From: a virus | Length of the DNA: 20,711 nt | Virus record (IMG/VR): IMGVR_UViG_3300046507_000597 | Coordinates: 1 to 20,711 of that record | Direction: 5' to 3' (one strand) | Shown here: positions 3,898-20,711 of the stretch, piece after piece | How the letters are laid out: each line of letters begins with the position of its first letter | Numbering within the stretch: position 1 is the stretch's first letter | Notes under the pieces: model-generated | Seen by the model: only the letters and a program-made list of their open reading frames with translations | Told to the model about the DNA's origin: nothing | Database searches by the model: none | Position numbers and translations under genes: made by a program

Positions 3898-4308
3898 TCA
3901 GTGCGGCAGAACCTCGTCGAGGTAGGCCTGCACCTTGTCGTACAGCGGGTACGGCACGTAGTCGGTGATCTCCGAGTGGGCGACCCAGGCGACCGCGTCC
4001 AGCTCCTCGGCATCCGCGACCCGGGCCTCGCCCTCGATGACCGTCGCCGCCGTGTACGACATCAGCCGGCCCGTGTTCGGGTGGATGCGCTCACCTAGCA
4101 ACCGGATCGCCTTCACGGTCAGCCCGGTCTCCTCGAGCGTCTCCCGCACGGCCGCGTCCTCCGCGCCCTCGCCGGGCTCGATGGCGCCCGCGGGGAACTG
4201 CCAGCTGAGCTTCCCCTCCTTGACGGCGCGGCGCACCATGAGCACCTTGCCGTCCTGGACGATGATCGCGGCGGAGATGCCCGGCTTCTCGGTGATGGTC
4301 TCGGTCAT
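3898..4308 (-). CDS. Nudix hydrolase
   Basis: This 136-residue protein has a complete Nudix box from G41 to L63 with the signature order G-x5-E, then R55-E56 and E59-E60 followed by TG. Nudix enzymes hydrolyse nucleoside diphosphates linked to another group, using Mg2+ held by the REUxEE glutamates. The chosen ATG (4308) has a GGAGG ribosome site and overlaps the stop of the upstream HTH-Nudix gene by four bases, so the two are made together. The substrate cannot be told from sequence. In pSAM2, a Streptomyces conjugative element, the immunity factor Pif carries a Nudix motif; with tra genes in this window that is a relevant comparison, though homology to Pif itself is not shown. Confidence 0.92.
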   Translation of the reverse strand: MTETITEKPGISAAIIVQDGKVLMVRRAVKEGKLSWQFPAGAIEPGEGAEDAAVRETLEETGLTVKAIRLLGERIHPNTGRLMSYTAATVIEGEARVADAEELDAVAWVAHSEITDYVPYPLYDKVQAYLDEVLPH

Positions 4309-4943
4309 ACGGTGGCCTCCAAGGCTTCCAGGATCGGCGGGTAGATGCGGTCTTCGGGGATGTAGCGGGCGAGCTCCGTTATCGGGGCCCACGCCACGGC
4401 GACGTTCTCGGAGGAATCCCCATTGATCGCCTCGCCGTGCACGAAATCGCAGAGAAAGTAATCGCAGTAAGCGCGCGTCACGGGATGCAGTCGTTCACCC
4501 AGATGCTCGCGGACCATGCAGTGCACGCCCGTCTCGTCCAGCGTCTCCCGGACCGCGACCTTCGTAGCCGACCCGCCCGGCTTCACGATGCCGGCCGGGA
4601 ACTGCCAGGTCATGTCGCTGCCGTCCTGCCTGCAGACGAGGAGCACCTTGTCCTCGCGTCGCACCACGGCGATGGCCACACGCAGCGCCTGCGCCGCCGT
4701 CTGACTTTCCGGTGGGCGCGCGAGGTGAATGAACCGCCGACGCACCGCATCACCTGCCCTCTCGTATGCCAAGTCGAGGATCTGCTGTACCTCGGTCCGG
4801 TGCACCATTTCCGGGCTGGAATGCCAGCGGGTAATGGTGCGCGCGGAAATGCCGAGGTGTTCGGCGAATCCGTCGTTCGTCATTCGTAGCGCCTCCTGGA
4901 GGAGGCACGCTGTCCGGCCGGTCCATGTACCGACGACGTCCAC
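4305..4943 (-). CDS. HTH-Nudix fusion protein with a degenerate Nudix box
   Basis: This 212-residue product begins at GTG 4943 with GGGAG upstream. Residues ~22-60 form an XRE-like helix-turn-helix (FAEHLGISARTITRWHSSPE), followed from ~88 by a Nudix fold. The Nudix box spans G118-V140, but the first consensus glutamate is glycine (G124) and the first glutamate of the REUxEE pair is aspartate (D136); R132, E133 and E137 are kept. It may therefore be a weak hydrolase or a ligand sensor whose nucleotide binding controls the HTH. It is coupled to the second, intact Nudix gene through an ATGA overlap. Such regulator-Nudix pairs recur in Streptomyces elements. Confidence 0.9.
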   Translation of the reverse strand: MDVVGTWTGRTACLLQEALRMTNDGFAEHLGISARTITRWHSSPEMVHRTEVQQILDLAYERAGDAVRRRFIHLARPPESQTAAQALRVAIAVVRREDKVLLVCRQDGSDMTWQFPAGIVKPGGSATKVAVRETLDETGVHCMVREHLGERLHPVTRAYCDYFLCDFVHGEAINGDSSENVAVAWAPITELARYIPEDRIYPPILEALEATV

Positions 4944-8622: not shown

Positions 8623-9921
8623 GTGACCGCCACATCCGTCGAGAAGGTCAACGGCACGCCGAAGACCTCGCCCGAGCCGCGGTTTGACCCGCGCGCGCTG
8701 GCCGAGGCGGAGGCGATCCGTACCCGAGCCGCCGCCGAAGCCGAGGCCCTGCGCACCGAAGCGGCGGGCAAGGCTGAGGCCGAGAAGATCCTCGCCGCGG
8801 AGAAGGCCGAGAAGGAGCGCATCGCCAACGAGCGCGCCGCCATGCGGCTGGAGAAGGAGCAGGCCGACCACCAGGCGTACCTCGCCAAGAAGAACGCCGA
8901 GACCGCCAAGTCCAACACCGAGAAGGAGAAGGCCAACAAGGCCGCCGCCGAGAAGGAGGCGGCCGAAGCGAAGAGGGACGCCGAGCAGCAGCGAACCGAG
9001 CTGTGGTGGAAGTGGGGTGCCCGCGGCATCTACGCCGTCGGCCTGGTCATCGCCGCGCCGGTGCAGTTCATGCACTTCTGGGACCGGGCCCGCCCGTTCC
9101 TGATCGCGGCGCCTGCGCTCCTCGAAGGCCTCGCCCTCGTGTTGGCGTTCGGCGCCGCCTGGGCGGTCGCGCACCGCCGGGATGTCGCCCCGTACCGGGT
9201 CGGCATCATGCTTGGCGCCGTGATCGCCGCCGGCATCAACATGTACGGCGGTCTGTCCGATCCGCGGATCGGTTTCAACGCCGGCCTGATCGGCGCTATC
9301 GCCTCCCTTGGCGGGCCGATCGTGCTGATGGCCTACGAGCACGGCATCGCCCAGAAGGCGGACGGGATCCCGTCGTGGCGGGAGCGGCGCAGCGCTGAGA
9401 AGGTCGCGGAGGCGGAGGCCGCCGTTGTCGAGCAGGCGCGCCTGGAGAAGGAAGCGGCCGAGACGGCCGCGGCGGCCGAGAAGAAGGCTGCGCAGGAGCG
9501 CGCCGAGGAGGAGCAGCGGCGCCGCGACGATGACCGCCGTGAGGGTCACCCGGAGATCTGGAAGACCGCCGAGGCGATGCGTTCCGCTCGCGGCTCGCAG
9601 TACGTCACGGAGCAGATCTGGGCCGAGGCCTGGTACCGCAAGACGGGCTCGAAGTTGGTCGGCGTGACCGCCGAAATCGAAGCCGAGTCGCGCGCCGCGC
9701 AGGCCCGCATGCAGAACGTCACCAGCACTCCGATAATCGGTGAGTTTTCGCTGGTCGATTCCCAACGACCCGCCCGCGAAAAGCGTGACCCGAACGCCCC
9801 CGACGGACGCCGCAACAACGGCGGCACCCCGCCCGTCCGTCGAGTCGGCGACGCCACCCCGAACCACCCCGTCGCACGCAAGCAGGCCGCCGTCGAGCGG
9901 ACCACCGAGAAGAAGGACTGA
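8623..9921 (+). CDS. spdB: SpdB-like DUF2637 membrane protein (plasmid spread/transfer)
   Basis: This 432-residue product starts at GTG 8623, with an AAAGGA site upstream. Residues ~20-125 are an Ala/Glu/Lys-rich coiled coil. Residues ~135-243 hold four membrane helices (GIYAVGLVIAAPVQFMHF; LLEGLALVLAFGAAWAVA; GIMLGAVIAAGINMYGGL; a last one ending PIVLMAYEHGI). Residues ~255-300 are a second coiled coil, followed by a helical domain and a basic tail. The membrane core matches DUF2637, which includes SpdB-type proteins of Streptomyces conjugative plasmids; these sit beside TraB and help DNA spread between mycelial compartments. It directly precedes traB (nine bases). The gene symbol is by family and context. 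Confidence 0.8.
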   Translation: MTATSVEKVNGTPKTSPEPRFDPRALAEAEAIRTRAAAEAEALRTEAAGKAEAEKILAAEKAEKERIANERAAMRLEKEQADHQAYLAKKNAETAKSNTEKEKANKAAAEKEAAEAKRDAEQQRTELWWKWGARGIYAVGLVIAAPVQFMHFWDRARPFLIAAPALLEGLALVLAFGAAWAVAHRRDVAPYRVGIMLGAVIAAGINMYGGLSDPRIGFNAGLIGAIASLGGPIVLMAYEHGIAQKADGIPSWRERRSAEKVAEAEAAVVEQARLEKEAAETAAAAEKKAAQERAEEEQRRRDDDRREGHPEIWKTAEAMRSARGSQYVTEQIWAEAWYRKTGSKLVGVTAEIEAESRAAQARMQNVTSTPIIGEFSLVDSQRPAREKRDPNAPDGRRNNGGTPPVRRVGDATPNHPVARKQAAVERTTEKKD

Positions 9922-9930
9922 GACCCCGCC

Positions 9931-12042
9931 ATGGCCACCCCGCTGACCGACGAGCGCACCCCGCTGAAGCTCGTCAAGGACGAGCCCGCACCGGCCGCGC
10001 CCCTCGCCGTCGAGCCCCGCCCGCGTGCCGCCTGGATTCTGTCCGGGGAGCAGCTGCGGCATCGCCTTGTCTACATCCGCGACAACGCCTCCGACGCGAT
10101 CCGCTTCCACGTCACCCACTCGCCGTACTACCTCGGCTGGTCGGTGCGCGGATACCGGCGGCTGTGCCTGCGGTGGTGGGAGGCGCGGTGTGACGACTAC
10201 CGGCAGCAGATCGCCACCGCCAAGCAGATGATCCGCGAAGCGAAGGCACAGCCGCGCGGCAGCGTGCGAGCGGCGGACGAGGCGAAAGCCCGCGCGCTGC
10301 GCAAGGTGCTGCGCGCCGACTATCGCGCCCACAAGCGGCAGCACTGGATCAAGACCGGTCACAGCGGCCTGCTTCCCGCAGCCATCGTCACGGGCGGGGC
10401 CATCGCAGCCGGCTTCTGGGTGCAGTTGCTGCTCGCCCTCGCTTTCATCGTCACCGGCGCCTACTTCGGCCGGCCCGAAGAGCCCGCCGTCGCCCCAACC
10501 CAGGCCCCGACCCGCACCAGCCACCTGGGCGAGGAGACCATGCGGCGCGTCCTCGTCGAGGCCGGCGTCGTCCCCGAGAAGCGCGCCACCGAGGTCCGCG
10601 GCGTTGGCCTGCCCCACACCGACGGGCCGGGCATCGCCTACGCCGTCGACCTGCCCTCCGGTATCCCCGCCTCCGCGGCGCTCGGCAAGGAGACGCAGAA
10701 GAAGATCGCGTCCGCGCTCACCGTGCACCTGGACTGGATCGACCTCGACGTCGACCGCAGCCCCGGCAGCAGCGAGTCCCGCCTCAAGGTGTGGGTGTCC
10801 AACGGTGATCCGTTCGCCGTCGTCCGCCGGTCCCCGCTGCTCGACCACAAGGGGGCGATCAACACCTTCCTCGACGGCATCCCCGCCTCGTTCGCCAAGC
10901 GCGGCAACGCGATCATCCTGCGGATCCGGGACACCAGCATCCTCGTCGCCGGTGCCACCCGCCGCGGCAAGGGCATGTTCCTCGCGAACATCCTCATCGG
11001 CGTGATGAAGGACCCGTGGGTCAACGTCCGGATCTTCGACGGCAAGGGGACCGCCGAACACAACCCCTACGCGCCGACCCTGTCCACGTTCGTGAAGCGC
11101 AATCCCGAACGGCTCGCCATCATCACCCGCGCGATCGTCGCCGAACTCGACCGTCGCTCCGACCTTCTCGACGAGCACGGCTACGAGAAGATCGACGACG
11201 ACAACTACGACGAGGTCATGAAGCTCCTCGGCGGCCGGGAAGTCTTCATCGTCGACGAACTCGCCACCTACACCCCCAAGGGCACCAGCCCCTACGACGA
11301 GGAGATCACCGAGAACCTGTCGCAGATCGCCGCCGTCGGCGCCGCGCTCGGCGTCCTCCTCATCAGCGTCACCCAGGTCCCCGAGGTCAGCGTCATCCGT
11401 GGCCGGCTCCGCCAGAACCACATCGGCCGCGCCGCAATGAACACCGAGTCCGGCACCGCCTCGAACACCATCCTCGGCGACGGCATGACCGGGCAGGGCT
11501 ACGACGCCTCCAAGATCCCGATCGACCAGCCGGGACGGTTCTGGCTGGCCACACCCGAGAGCGGCGTCATCGAGGGCCGTTCCTACCTGGTCACGCCCGA
11601 CGACAAGAGGCAGGTCGCAGCCGAGGGCTACGAGATCCGCAAGGCGGCCGGCCGCCTGCCTGGCCAGTGGCGCGACCCGATCGAGGAGCACCTGCAGCAG
11701 GTGACCGGCGTGTCCTCCGCGGCCGGCGGCGAGGGAGGCAAGGGGCGCATCGTCCACTTCGACTTCCTCACCTGGCTGGAGGAGTTGGCCCTGTCCACGG
11801 GGCGCGGCAACGTCACCAACCTGGAGGTGTTCACCAGCCTCGTCGACGTGTCGGCGGATTACGCGCGCCGGGACGGCGAATCGGACGAGGGCTGGACTGC
11901 CCGCGTCGGGAAGCTCGTCAGGGATCTGATCGCCGCGACGGGCGCCGAACTGCGGGTCAAGCGGGTGCCCGTGGATGACGGGAAGCGCTCGCAGGGCTAC
12001 CTGCTCGACGACGTCACGAAGGCCCGCAAAAGCCGCAAGTAA
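9931..12042 (+). CDS. traB: TraB-type FtsK/SpoIIIE DNA translocase
   Basis: The 703-residue protein starts at ATG 9931. Residues ~146-180 are a hydrophobic region fit for one or two membrane helices. The ATPase core has Walker A GATRRGKG at 341-348 and Walker B VFIVDE at 438-443, and then the FtsK-like RQNHIGRAAMNTESGTA segment. Residues ~608-703 look like a winged-helix domain, comparable with FtsK-gamma, which in TraB recognises octamer sites. TraB proteins are hexameric pumps that move double-stranded plasmid DNA between Streptomyces hyphae. Neighbours agree: SpdB before it and an octamer repeat cluster (12043-12193) right after it. A chromosomal-type FtsK is unlikely given length and context. 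Confidence 0.9.
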   Translation: MATPLTDERTPLKLVKDEPAPAAPLAVEPRPRAAWILSGEQLRHRLVYIRDNASDAIRFHVTHSPYYLGWSVRGYRRLCLRWWEARCDDYRQQIATAKQMIREAKAQPRGSVRAADEAKARALRKVLRADYRAHKRQHWIKTGHSGLLPAAIVTGGAIAAGFWVQLLLALAFIVTGAYFGRPEEPAVAPTQAPTRTSHLGEETMRRVLVEAGVVPEKRATEVRGVGLPHTDGPGIAYAVDLPSGIPASAALGKETQKKIASALTVHLDWIDLDVDRSPGSSESRLKVWVSNGDPFAVVRRSPLLDHKGAINTFLDGIPASFAKRGNAIILRIRDTSILVAGATRRGKGMFLANILIGVMKDPWVNVRIFDGKGTAEHNPYAPTLSTFVKRNPERLAIITRAIVAELDRRSDLLDEHGYEKIDDDNYDEVMKLLGGREVFIVDELATYTPKGTSPYDEEITENLSQIAAVGAALGVLLISVTQVPEVSVIRGRLRQNHIGRAAMNTESGTASNTILGDGMTGQGYDASKIPIDQPGRFWLATPESGVIEGRSYLVTPDDKRQVAAEGYEIRKAAGRLPGQWRDPIEEHLQQVTGVSSAAGGEGGKGRIVHFDFLTWLEELALSTGRGNVTNLEVFTSLVDVSADYARRDGESDEGWTARVGKLVRDLIAATGAELRVKRVPVDDGKRSQGYLLDDVTKARKSRK

Positions 12043-12193
12043 CCCCTGACAGGCCCCTGGCGACGAGTGGATAACCCCAGGTCGCTGCCCTGACACACCC
12101 CTGACAGCTGCTGCCGTGAACAGCAGCCCAAGCCACCCCCGGTCAGGGGTCTGTCAGGGGCCCGACCTGCAGTAATCCAGGCTCCGCCAGGGG
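12043..12193 (+). repeat. GTCAGGGG octamer cluster around a hairpin, clt or origin candidate
   Basis: The non-coding gap after traB holds four exact copies of the octamer GTCAGGGG. Two are inverted (CCCCTGAC at 12043-12050 and 12098-12105) and two direct (12142-12149 and 12153-12160). Single-mismatch copies are at 12054-12061, 12087-12094 and 12186-12193. A 13-mer CAGGGGTCTGTCA occurs twice (starting 12144 and 12189), with a near copy in inverse. Orientation flips across a hairpin GCTGCTG/CAGCAGC (12107-12127). Known clt loci of Streptomyces plasmids contain short TraB-recognition repeats near traB, which fits. A replication origin or operator array is the alternative. Confidence 0.65.
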
Positions 12194-12229
12194 TCTGTCA
12201 CCCCGAAAATCGAGAAAGGTCCCGGCCCG

Positions 12230-12838
12230 ATGCTCACCCTGAAGATCCAGCAGATGACGGTCGACGGGCACCCCAACCTGTGCCCCGAGTGCGGTTCCGA
12301 GGCCTACACCCTCGACGGCGCCGGGTTCATCGACGGACTGCCCGTCCGCGGCAACTGCTGGCAGTCCCACAGCTGGGGAGAGCCGTTGATCACCATCGGC
12401 ATCCTCAAGGAGATTCAGGCCGCGAGCACGGGACGGGAGCGCGCCGAGGACGACGACACGTTCGAGATCGAAGTCGGTGGCGCCGTCTTCGCCGGGATCC
12501 TCCACCCCGACGTCATCGTCGACGACCTGAAGCGGGCTGTCCGCGACGTGTACTGGAAGCGGCTGATCAAACCCGCCCTCCGCAAGCAGAAGCGCAAGGC
12601 CCTGCGCGCCGCGAAGAAGCCCGTCAGCAACGCTGCCGCAGCCGCCAAAGCCGCAGCCATCGGTGCCGCCTGGGGCCTCCAAGCCGGCGGCCACGAACCC
12701 GACCCTGACTACACACCCGAACCGATCAACGCCTGCCCCGCCTGCGAGGGCAAGGGCGGCTTCGACCTCAAATCCAACATCCACGGCAACCGCCGTATCC
12801 CCTGCACCGTGTGCACCGGCACCGGCGAAATCGACTAG
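12230..12838 (+). CDS. Zinc-binding protein with DnaJ-like CxxCxGxG motifs
   Basis: The 202-residue product starts at ATG 12230 with GAGAAAGG upstream. It has an N-terminal zinc site CPECG (C18, C21, with C43 and H47 as possible partners). A basic, alanine-rich helical stretch lies at ~120-150. A C-terminal pair CPACEGKGG (C169, C172) and CTVCTGTGE (C192, C195) is the CxxCxGxG form found in DnaJ zinc fingers. No J domain is present. It probably binds nucleic acid or protein; exact role unknown. It begins 36 bases after the octamer cluster and heads a second group of accessory genes. Confidence 0.78.
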   Translation: MLTLKIQQMTVDGHPNLCPECGSEAYTLDGAGFIDGLPVRGNCWQSHSWGEPLITIGILKEIQAASTGRERAEDDDTFEIEVGGAVFAGILHPDVIVDDLKRAVRDVYWKRLIKPALRKQKRKALRAAKKPVSNAAAAAKAAAIGAAWGLQAGGHEPDPDYTPEPINACPACEGKGGFDLKSNIHGNRRIPCTVCTGTGEID

Positions 12839-18069: not shown

Positions 18070-18540
18070 ATGCCGAAGGGTGGAGCACGCACCAGGTCCG
18101 GGCCGGCGCCCGATCCGACCGCGCTGAGGCGCGAGCGAGACGCCGGCGAGTGGACGATTCTGCCTGCTGAAGGCCGTGAAGGCGCAACGCCTGACTGGCC
18201 GTTCGAGGAGCAGAGCGTTCGTGAGGCGGTGCTGTGGGAGCGCCTGTGGGAGAAGCCGCAGGGGCTGATGTGGGAACGGTACGGCCAGGAGATCGAGGTT
18301 GCGCTGTACGCCCGTCGGCTCGCTGAGGCGGAGAAGCCGGACTCGGCGGTCGTCCTGTCGACGCTTGTGCGGCAGATGGCGGACTCGTTGGGGCTGACGA
18401 CGCCTGGAATGCGCGGCAACCGGTGGCGCATCGACCGGATCAGCGAGGAAGACGAGACGCTGACGGGGCTGAGCGCGCCTGCCATTGAGGCGACCTCGGC
18501 GCGAGCCAGGCTGAGGGCGGTGCCTGGTGGTAGCGGCTGA
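18070..18540 (+). CDS. terS: Terminase small subunit
   Basis: ATG 18070 is chosen because TTGGAG lies at good spacing; GTG 18061 would touch it. The 156-residue product begins PKGGARTRSGPAPDPTALRR, a typical start of actinophage small terminases (P.GP...D), and has a DWPFEEQSVREAVLWERLW helix, a long helical middle and an NRWRI segment before the tail. Small terminases bind the packaging site and load the large subunit. The gene overlaps the large subunit gene by 14 bases, and the repeat-bearing gap just upstream fits as its binding site. Confidence 0.85.
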   Translation: MPKGGARTRSGPAPDPTALRRERDAGEWTILPAEGREGATPDWPFEEQSVREAVLWERLWEKPQGLMWERYGQEIEVALYARRLAEAEKPDSAVVLSTLVRQMADSLGLTTPGMRGNRWRIDRISEEDETLTGLSAPAIEATSARARLRAVPGGSG

Positions 18541-20155
18541 CGACGGGACCTGGCCGCTGGATTTCCCCACCCTGTACGTCGTCCCTGACTGGATTGCTCG
18601 GCATTGCCTGCTGCAGTCGGTTGGCGGCCTGGATATCACGCCGCGCCCGTTCGAGATGTACGACTGGCAGCTGCGGATCACGGCGAATCTGTACCGTGTC
18701 AAGCCGACTGCCGAGCTTGGCCAGCTGTCGACCGCGTTCCACTATCGGCGTGCTCAGGCGGTGGCTCCTCAGAAGTCCGGCAAGGGTCCGTGGGCCGCGT
18801 CTGTGGTTGCCGCGGAGGCCGTTGGCCCGGTGCTGTTCAACGGTTGGGCGCAGGGCGGGGAGCGCTATCGGTGCTCGGATCACGGGTGCGGCTGTGGCTG
18901 GGTGTACTGGTACGAGCCGGGCGAGCCAATGGGCCGGCCGTGGAATCAGCCGCTGATCCAGATCACGGCAACGTCCGAGGATCAGACGGACAACACGTAC
19001 CGGCCTCTGCAGGCGATGATTCGGAATGGCCCGCTGTCCGAGGTGATGAAAGTCGGTGAGCAGTTCATCCGGCTGCCGAACGACGGCCGGATCGACGTCG
19101 TCACATCGTCCGCCCAGTCGAGGCTGGGTAACCCGATCACGTTTGCGTCGCAGGACGAGAGCGGAATCTGGACCGAGCAGAACGGCATGACCAAGGTCGC
19201 CACGACGCAACGCCGCGGCCTGGCGGGCATGTCAGGGCGCTCGCTGGAGCAGACGAATGCCTGGGATCCGACGGAGAACACGGTCGCGCAGAAGACCGCG
19301 GAGACGAAGGCCCCGGACGTCTACCGGTTCCACCGGCTGCCGCCCAAGAGCCTGTCGTACACGAACAAGGCGGAACGGCGGCGAATCCACGCGGCCGTGT
19401 ACCTGGGCAGTACGCACATCGACCTCGATGCCATCGAGGGCGAGGCCTTCGAGCTGATGGAGAAGGAGCCTGCGGAAGCGGAGCGCTTCTACGGCAACCG
19501 CATCACGGCGGGCATGGGCACCTGGCTGCAGCAGGACCGCTGGGACGCCCGCATCGCCTTGGAGGACGTGCCGGACGGCACGGCTCTCGCGCTGGGCTTC
19601 GACGGCTCCGACGTGGACGACTGGACCGGCATCCGTGCCGAGACTTTGGACGGCTACCAGTTCACTCCGACCTACGGGCCCGACAACAGGCCGTGCATCT
19701 GGGATCCAGAGGACTGGGAGGGCCAGGTGCCGCGGCTTGAGGTCGATGCCGCGGTGGATGAACTGATGGGCCGCTTCAACGTGGTGCGTATGTACGGCGA
19801 CCCGCCGTACTGGACCAGCGAGATGGCGGCCTGGCAGGCCCGATTCGGCGAGAAGCGCGTCACTGAGTGGCAGACGTACCGCGTTGCGCAGATGCATGCG
19901 GCCTGCGAGCAGCTACTGACGGACGTCACGAAGAAGGACACGACCTTCCGGCATGACGGCTGTGAGACGACGTCTATCCACGTCCGGAACGCCCGCAAGG
20001 CGGCCCGGCCGGCGAAGCGTTACGTGCTGCGTAAGGCGACGCACGTTCAAAAGATCGACCTTGCCGTGGTGTCAGTTCTAGCCCATGAGGCCGCGTGCGA
20101 TGCGATCGCCGCTGGTGAAGCCCGGACCAAGAAGCGCAGGGCGCGCGGATTCTGA
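18527..20155 (+). CDS. terL: Terminase large subunit
   Basis: The 542-residue product starts at GTG 18527 inside the small subunit gene. The ATPase has Walker A APQKSGKG (80-87) and Walker B TFASQDES with D210-E211. The C-terminal nuclease (RNase H-like) shows LGFDGSD with D359 and D362, and IDLAVVSVLAHEAA with D511. An inserted Cys-rich stretch near 115-125 (CSDHGCGCGW) may bind zinc. The enzyme cuts concatemeric DNA and drives it into the prohead through the portal. Full length for the family, with no broken motif. The portal gene follows after 15 bases. Confidence 0.95.
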   Translation: MVAADDGTWPLDFPTLYVVPDWIARHCLLQSVGGLDITPRPFEMYDWQLRITANLYRVKPTAELGQLSTAFHYRRAQAVAPQKSGKGPWAASVVAAEAVGPVLFNGWAQGGERYRCSDHGCGCGWVYWYEPGEPMGRPWNQPLIQITATSEDQTDNTYRPLQAMIRNGPLSEVMKVGEQFIRLPNDGRIDVVTSSAQSRLGNPITFASQDESGIWTEQNGMTKVATTQRRGLAGMSGRSLEQTNAWDPTENTVAQKTAETKAPDVYRFHRLPPKSLSYTNKAERRRIHAAVYLGSTHIDLDAIEGEAFELMEKEPAEAERFYGNRITAGMGTWLQQDRWDARIALEDVPDGTALALGFDGSDVDDWTGIRAETLDGYQFTPTYGPDNRPCIWDPEDWEGQVPRLEVDAAVDELMGRFNVVRMYGDPPYWTSEMAAWQARFGEKRVTEWQTYRVAQMHAACEQLLTDVTKKDTTFRHDGCETTSIHVRNARKAARPAKRYVLRKATHVQKIDLAVVSVLAHEAACDAIAAGEARTKKRRARGF

Positions 20156-20170: not shown

Positions 20171-20711
20171 ATGCTTCAGCCTGCAGTCCAGTCCCCGGAG
20201 TGGTGGCGTGACCGCTTGTACGAGGCGCTGTGCAAGCGGTCGGAGGAGACGAAAGTCTTTGACGACTACTACGAGTGCGAGCACCCGCTGCCGCACCTGC
20301 ACGAGAGGGCGCGGGAGCCGTTCCGGCGGCTGCTGAAGATGTCCCGGGCGAATTACATGGAGCTCGTCGTCGATGCGCTCGTGGGTCGCCTGGAGGTGGC
20401 TGGCTTCCAGTCGGACGCCGACGCCGGTGACGCGGATCAGGCGGCGTGGGGGCTGTGGCAGGACAACAACCTGGACGGCGGCTCGTCGCTGGCGTTCCTG
20501 GAGGCGGCGATCCGCGGAAACGCCTACATGCTGGTGTCGCCGGACAAGCGACTCGGCTTCCGGATCACTCCGGAGCATCCGACGCAGGTCATCACGGAGG
20601 AGAAGCCGGGGGAGCCCGGCGAGATGGCCGCTGCGCTGAAGCTGTGGATCGATGACTGGACGGCCAAGCTGTGCTGCACGGTCTATCTCCCCGACCGGAT
20701 CTACAAGTTCG
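20171..20711 (+). CDS. Phage portal protein, SPP1 gp6-like, 3' end cut
   Basis: ATG 20171 has GAGAGGGGG upstream, and the frame stays open to the window end (180 residues). The start PEWWRDRLYEAL, followed by FDDYYECEHPLPHL, FRRLLKMSRANYMELVVDAL and then LAFLEAAIRGNAYMLV and a TPEHPTQVI segment, is typical of SPP1 gp6-type portals. These form the dodecameric ring at one head vertex through which terminase pumps DNA. Order (small terminase, large terminase, portal) is canonical. Confidence 0.92.
   Translation, partial: MLQPAVQSPEWWRDRLYEALCKRSEETKVFDDYYECEHPLPHLHERAREPFRRLLKMSRANYMELVVDALVGRLEVAGFQSDADAGDADQAAWGLWQDNNLDGGSSLAFLEAAIRGNAYMLVSPDKRLGFRITPEHPTQVITEEKPGEPGEMAAALKLWIDDWTAKLCCTVYLPDRIYKF

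Follow-up and report, generated by a model that had tools for sequence, protein, structure and literature searches.

A candidate clt locus in a viral genome: an inverted octamer array adjoining a traB-like gene and apparently following its C-terminal domain

Described transfer loci and related systems

Short polar octamers, KOPS for FtsK and SRS for SpoIIIE, are read by the winged helix of FtsK-family motors, and in the FtsK/KOPS system the direction of the motor follows the polarity of the octamer. KOPS and SRS are scattered along chromosomes, whereas octamers of the type described here are concentrated in one array. In the Streptomyces plasmid pSVH1 (NC_007431), the octamer GACCCGGA, which we take to be the TRS, occurs in the gap 3′ of traB four times on the plus strand at the left and inverted at the right. 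TraB of pSVH1 reads its 8-bp TRS through helix α3 of the C-terminal winged helix, a result of Vogelmann et al. (2011) as relayed in PMC3583192, and an 8-bp TRS is also given in PMC4170104. The clt of the Streptomyces plasmid pWTY27, 159 bp located 3′ of traA, is required for transfer, and TraA leaves a footprint on it; it contains the 7-bp repeat TGACACC four times, along with inverted repeats (PMC3583192). For the archetypal AICE pSAM2 no clt is described (PMC9513070). A Streptomyces plasmid-phage whose genome is reported to have conjugal transfer function, pZL12/phage ZL12 (NC_013420), is cited in PMC3583192.

The array reported here resembles the pSVH1 clt in its non-coding location directly 3′ of traB, its repeated 8-bp sites and its polarity flip, and pSVH1 shares a constant core on the right arm (CTGACCTGC). 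On the other hand, pSVH1 has another octamer, an irregular spacing and no left core, and it is a plasmid, not a phage. The two TraB proteins are 27% identical over the motor, and their C-termini are not alignable by BLASTP. The clt of pWTY27 likewise presents repeats and inverted repeats adjoining a tra gene but, unlike the present array, takes in 16 bp of traA (PMC3583192). The polarity flip had been regarded in an earlier note on this DNA as a departure from the usual layout; this view has to be given up, since the TRS of pSVH1 flips in the same way and published clt loci hold inverted repeats (PMC3583192). pZL12/ZL12 resembles our case in the combination of phage and transfer, but showed no match to the TraB studied here when phage records were searched by tblastn.

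The traB-like gene and the array

The window, i.e. the whole stretch of DNA that was analysed, comes from IMG/VR, where it forms a virus record of 20.7 kb. The genes and protein regions referred to below are as follows.

8623–9921, plus strand: gene before traB, distantly SpdB2-like (pSVH1; weak match, 32% over 69 aa, E 0.002)
9931–12042, plus strand: traB-like gene, 703 aa, with a hydrophobic segment at about residues 145–179, an FtsK/SpoIIIE motor and a predicted C-terminal winged helix
11752–12039, plus strand: TraB C-terminal domain, residues 608–703, predicted winged helix and putative swappable specificity domain
11884–11940, plus strand: predicted recognition helix of the C-terminal domain, residues 652–670, within EGWTARVGKLVRD
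12230–12838, plus strand: gene after the array, small Cys-motif protein with a weak DnaJ-type zinc-finger match
18527–20155, plus strand: phage terminase large subunit (context)
20171–20711, plus strand: phage portal protein, running off the contig

The Walker A motif of this TraB is GATRRGKG (residues 341–348). The model of the full-length protein was poor (pLDDT 54), and the C-terminal model alone was therefore used; it is a winged helix with pLDDT of about 90 or more. The folds nearest to this model are forkhead, PadR and MarR winged helices (Z 4–6). Foldseek returned nothing below E 0.001, and FtsK gamma was not among the matches listed.

Directly 3′ of the traB-like gene, four exact and three one-mismatch copies of GTCAGGGG lie within 151 bp (12043–12193), the left-arm copies on the minus strand and the right-arm copies on the plus strand, in agreement with the positions and the strand switch that had been reported before. 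The octamers are direct repeats inside each arm and inverted between the arms, so that a stretch of 158 nt forms one long imperfect inverted repeat. Three features go beyond the earlier description: a degenerate eighth slot, two core octamers (12076–12083 and 12164–12171) and a strict 11-bp register, with spacings of 11-33-11 / 44 / 11-33-11.

12043–12204, no strand: whole element, clt-like inverted TRS array, with homologous arrays in the same gap of relatives
12043–12050, minus strand: TRS1, GTCAGGGG, exact
12054–12061, minus strand: TRS2, GCCAGGGG, one mismatch
12076–12083, plus strand: left constant core, CCCAGGTC, sharing the 11-bp register of the TRS slots
12087–12094, minus strand: TRS3, GTCAGGGC, one mismatch
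12098–12105, minus strand: TRS4, GTCAGGGG, exact
12107–12127, no strand: central hairpin of the earlier note
12142–12149, plus strand: TRS5, GTCAGGGG, exact
12153–12160, plus strand: TRS6, GTCAGGGG, exact
12164–12171, minus strand: right constant core, GACCTGCA (TGCAGGTC on the minus strand)
12186–12193, plus strand: TRS7, GCCAGGGG, one mismatch
12197–12204, plus strand: TRS8 slot, degenerate (GTCACCCC)

A scan of the 20.7-kb sequence, as the earlier note had suggested, finds exact GTCAGGGG at the four array positions only. With one mismatch allowed, about 33 matches are expected per window and about 0.24 per 151 bp, compared with the seven seen in the array. Four exact copies of any 8-mer within 151 bp were obtained in 0 of 40 dinucleotide shuffles. 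A de novo inverted-array score computed from this sequence alone was 13, which is not significant against 60 shuffles (mean 5.8, largest 18). Because this single-sequence score is not decisive, the strong evidence for the array is comparative. One other place in the window likewise reaches four copies in 151 bp: an 8-mer pair belonging to a coding repeat, GAGAAGGAG, at 8808–8958 in the gene that precedes traB.

Conservation of the array in relatives

The gap 3′ of traB was compared across phage contigs, chromosomal elements and plasmids, and it was found that inverted arrays occupy it in temperate phages, integrated elements and plasmids as well. In 12 relatives, eight slots recur at nearly equal offsets, in multiples of 11 bp, with a variable octamer. 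Counted from the traB stop, the slots lie at 3/14/47/58 and 102/113/146/157 nt in the window and in L003, L015, L017, L019, L020, L023, L024, L066 and L070; the pattern also fits L018 (with a shift of one), L064 (the same slots, with the octamers read in a different frame) and L072 (part of the left sites being degenerate). The comparison proposed earlier thus shows the place and geometry of the array kept while the octamer changes: CCCCTGAC, GGTCTGCC, GGTCGGAC and CATCGGAC are found among elements with this geometry, and ACCCTGCC and CCCGTGAT in other relatives. Where the slots of relatives were read out, 10 of these have an octamer of their own class at the offset of the degenerate TRS8. Of the 146 sites that differ from the consensus of their element by at most one mismatch, 7 have the wrong polarity.

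Equal density of the octamer over the whole genome, which had been named as evidence against the idea, is not what we see. In the 78-kb relative G395, GTCAGGGG occurs five times against 6.2 expected, with three of the five copies in the array, and in G404 six of the seven copies of GTCCGACC are in the array. A system of the FtsK/KOPS kind, in which octamers would be over-represented and polar genome-wide, was rejected on these counts. Exact copies of the E. coli KOPS (GGGNAGGG) stand in the arrays of L002, L022, L025 and L027, and they point outward in both arms.

Many arrays, that of pSVH1 included, carry the core GCAGGTC/GACCTGC on one or both arms whatever their octamer, but it is absent from some, e.g. 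L030–L034. Within the close clade, this constant core occupies another position of the 11-bp slot register. In the more distant plasmid and integrated elements (L026–L036, L040–L050 and L076–L090), an automated scan gave partial or weak inverted arrays; with the exception of L027, these were left out of the tests. A DNA-level search of plasmids gave no matches.

The octamer follows the C-terminal domain of TraB

Among the relatives compared, the TraB motor is conserved and residues 608–703 are strongly variable. In a Mantel test, run first on 15 elements and extended to 19, the divergence of the C-terminal domain correlates with that of the octamer (r = 0.71, p = 5e-5), and the correlation persists when motor divergence is controlled (partial r = 0.66, p = 5e-5), whereas that of motor with octamer, the C-terminus being controlled, is 0.11 (p = 0.13); the elements are akin and the slots were placed after the motifs were known, so that these permutation p values overstate independence and serve as guides only.

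Natural swaps point the same way. The motors of the window and L002 are 94% identical, with C-termini of only 33% identity and different octamers. Octamers also differ in the pairs L022–L005 (motor/C-terminal identity 95%/17%), L024–L019 (97%/65%) and L015–L018 (95%/75%). Conversely, an octamer is shared by L022 and L002 (79%/83%) and by L019 and L023 (80%/85%). Three of the four phage elements added after the classes had been defined (L064, L066 and L070) carry the octamer class expected from their C-terminal domain; that of the fourth, L072, is not as predicted. Taken together, these comparisons indicate, albeit indirectly, that octamer identity tracks the C-terminal domain rather than the motor, and that the specificity for the repeat would be set there.

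The recognition helix of L072 is like that of L019/L023 (the GGTCGGAC group), and its octamers belong to the GGTCTGCC group, the class of L015. A recent exchange of domain or array is a possible explanation for this mismatch. A rule predicting the octamer from the two residues between W and R of the recognition helix was also tried; it fails for L072 and was dropped.

Assignment of the array and competing explanations

The window array has the characters of a clt/TRS locus: it is non-coding and adjoins an FtsK/SpoIIIE-type tra gene, a motif of about 8 bp is present there in several concentrated copies, the motor carries a C-terminal winged helix according to the predicted model, and co-variation and natural swaps indirectly assign specificity to that C-terminal domain. 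On account of its position, repeats, domain and co-variation, we assign the array to clt. Given the array, its geometry and conservation, the co-variation, the predicted fold and the phage context, all of which come out of the present analysis, it is very probable that the array serves as a clt, at which the winged helix of TraB would bind the octamers and load the motor, and from which double-stranded DNA would be pumped to the neighbour. The clt idea of the earlier note has therefore gained from the comparison, since the array keeps its place and geometry, the octamer co-varies with the TraB winged helix and the octamer is not spread over the element.

Could the array instead be an operator that places the downstream genes under the control of TraB or some other regulator? 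The next gene follows it directly, and bound TraB could act as a roadblock. However, the gap is without a promoter-like site, and the corresponding position in pWTY27 is a cis-acting transfer site (PMC3583192). We consider this quite unlikely as a replacement for the transfer site, though it is conceivable as a second role.

The predicted fold of the gap raises another question, namely whether base pairing itself is selected, as in a folded RNA or cruciform; between traB and the gene that follows, such a structure might be an attenuator or a hairpin for processing or stability. All 158 nt are predicted to form a single long hairpin with a very strong score (z −7.5 as DNA and −8.4 as RNA), and 18 of 35 consensus pairs have changes on both sides. 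Nevertheless, by column position the consensus pairs fall nearly all inside the octamers or the core, with the spacers hardly paired, and facing octamers are no more alike than randomly dealt ones (four mismatches against 3.0 expected in L020, and four against 2.0 in L019). Moreover, octamers are repeated within each arm, which pairing does not need; the gap has no Rfam match, and a test for a Rho-independent terminator or attenuator (a GC-rich hairpin followed by a T run) found no such site in it. A selected RNA structure was rejected on the facing octamers and the missing conserved pairing of the spacers, and selected base pairing in general is highly improbable. Because facing octamers match no better than chance, the hairpin is best read as a by-product of the inverted sites. 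This fold is larger than the central hairpin (12107–12127) around which the array had been described earlier; the coordinates of the array are confirmed, and that hairpin is not conserved in relatives.

An origin, which the flip had also been thought to mark, is very unlikely. Repeats in helical register with dyad symmetry do look like iterons, and RepA of pWTY27 binds a long inverted repeat (PMC3583192); but the iteron and clt loci of pWTY27 are separate (PMC3583192), the pSVH1 array adjoins traB far from rep, and the octamers vary together with the C-terminal domain of TraB. It is also very unlikely that the array serves phage packaging (pac/cos) or partition and adjoins traB by chance: terminase or portal genes follow about 5–8 kb downstream in several phage contigs, but arrays occupy the same gap in plasmids such as pSVH1, their geometry is common to phages with different portal families (SPP1_portal or Phage_portal), and the octamers track the TraB domain.

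Proposed mechanism

For the array as a clt, we propose that the TraB winged helix would bind the octamers (TRS) on one face of the DNA helix, in one orientation on the left arm and in the opposite orientation on the right arm. In this way the FtsK-like hexamer, anchored in the membrane, would assemble on the DNA of its own element, and this DNA would then be pumped unprocessed into the neighbouring hypha or compartment. The layout is compatible with the two oppositely directed pumps of the earlier note: as the arms are inverted, two motors might load back to back and take one arm each, like SpoIIIE at the septum; this part of the model is tentative and somewhat less than an even bet. Two-sided loading would allow a closed circle to be threaded without cutting. 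Outward movement of the motors is suggested by the G-rich strand of the KOPS-matching octamers, which reads outward on both arms, on the analogy of FtsK.

The fullest version of the model is possible but rather doubtful: the clt would be a dyad, bidirectional loading site with eight TRS in helical register and two outward TraB motors, a separate factor bound at the constant core GCAGGTC/GACCTGC would set the dyad, and temperate Streptomyces phages would use the system to spread without particles. If true, both arms of an uncut circular double-stranded DNA would be pumped simultaneously, much as SpoIIIE moves both arms of the chromosome, and a phage family would gain a second, particle-free route of spreading through a plasmid-type system. 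As to how TraB passes uncut circular DNA through a pore, a dyad-symmetric loading site of inverted polarity would be a concrete and testable answer. The natural domain swaps also offer a ready specificity code that links the recognition helices of TraB to their 8-bp sites; with it, clt loci, and clt-like host sites mobilised by TraB, would become predictable from sequence.

Phage context

Downstream of the array are the cysteine-rich small protein, then terminase (with a weak small-subunit match) and portal genes; in the phage and S. hygroscopicus relatives, the start of the gene at 12230–12838 can be recognised 3′ of the array. Among the 12 TraB-carrying virus records, the window included, 11 encode a phage portal, which belongs to either of two Pfam families, and eight a tyrosine integrase. 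Two records examined at length contain portal, capsid, terminase, tail tape measure, endolysin and integrase families. From the two portal families and the integrases, we conclude that the TraB/array module sits, as judged by gene content, inside temperate phages with different head genes, so that plasmid-type transfer modules are found within temperate phages. The chromosomal relatives of the module belong to Streptomyces and its family. A tblastn search of phage records found no isolated phage with this TraB in the collection. L003/G395 (78 kb) and L023/G404 (60 kb) are phage-like records that have integrase, head, tail and lysis genes in addition to TraB and the array.

Immunity to conjugation in the AICE pSAM2 uses the Nudix protein Pif (PMC3218068). 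On the minus strand of the window (3898–4943) two Nudix ORFs overlap, and one of them has an XRE-like helix-turn-helix at its N-terminus; by analogy with Pif, this may be an exclusion gene of the TraB module.
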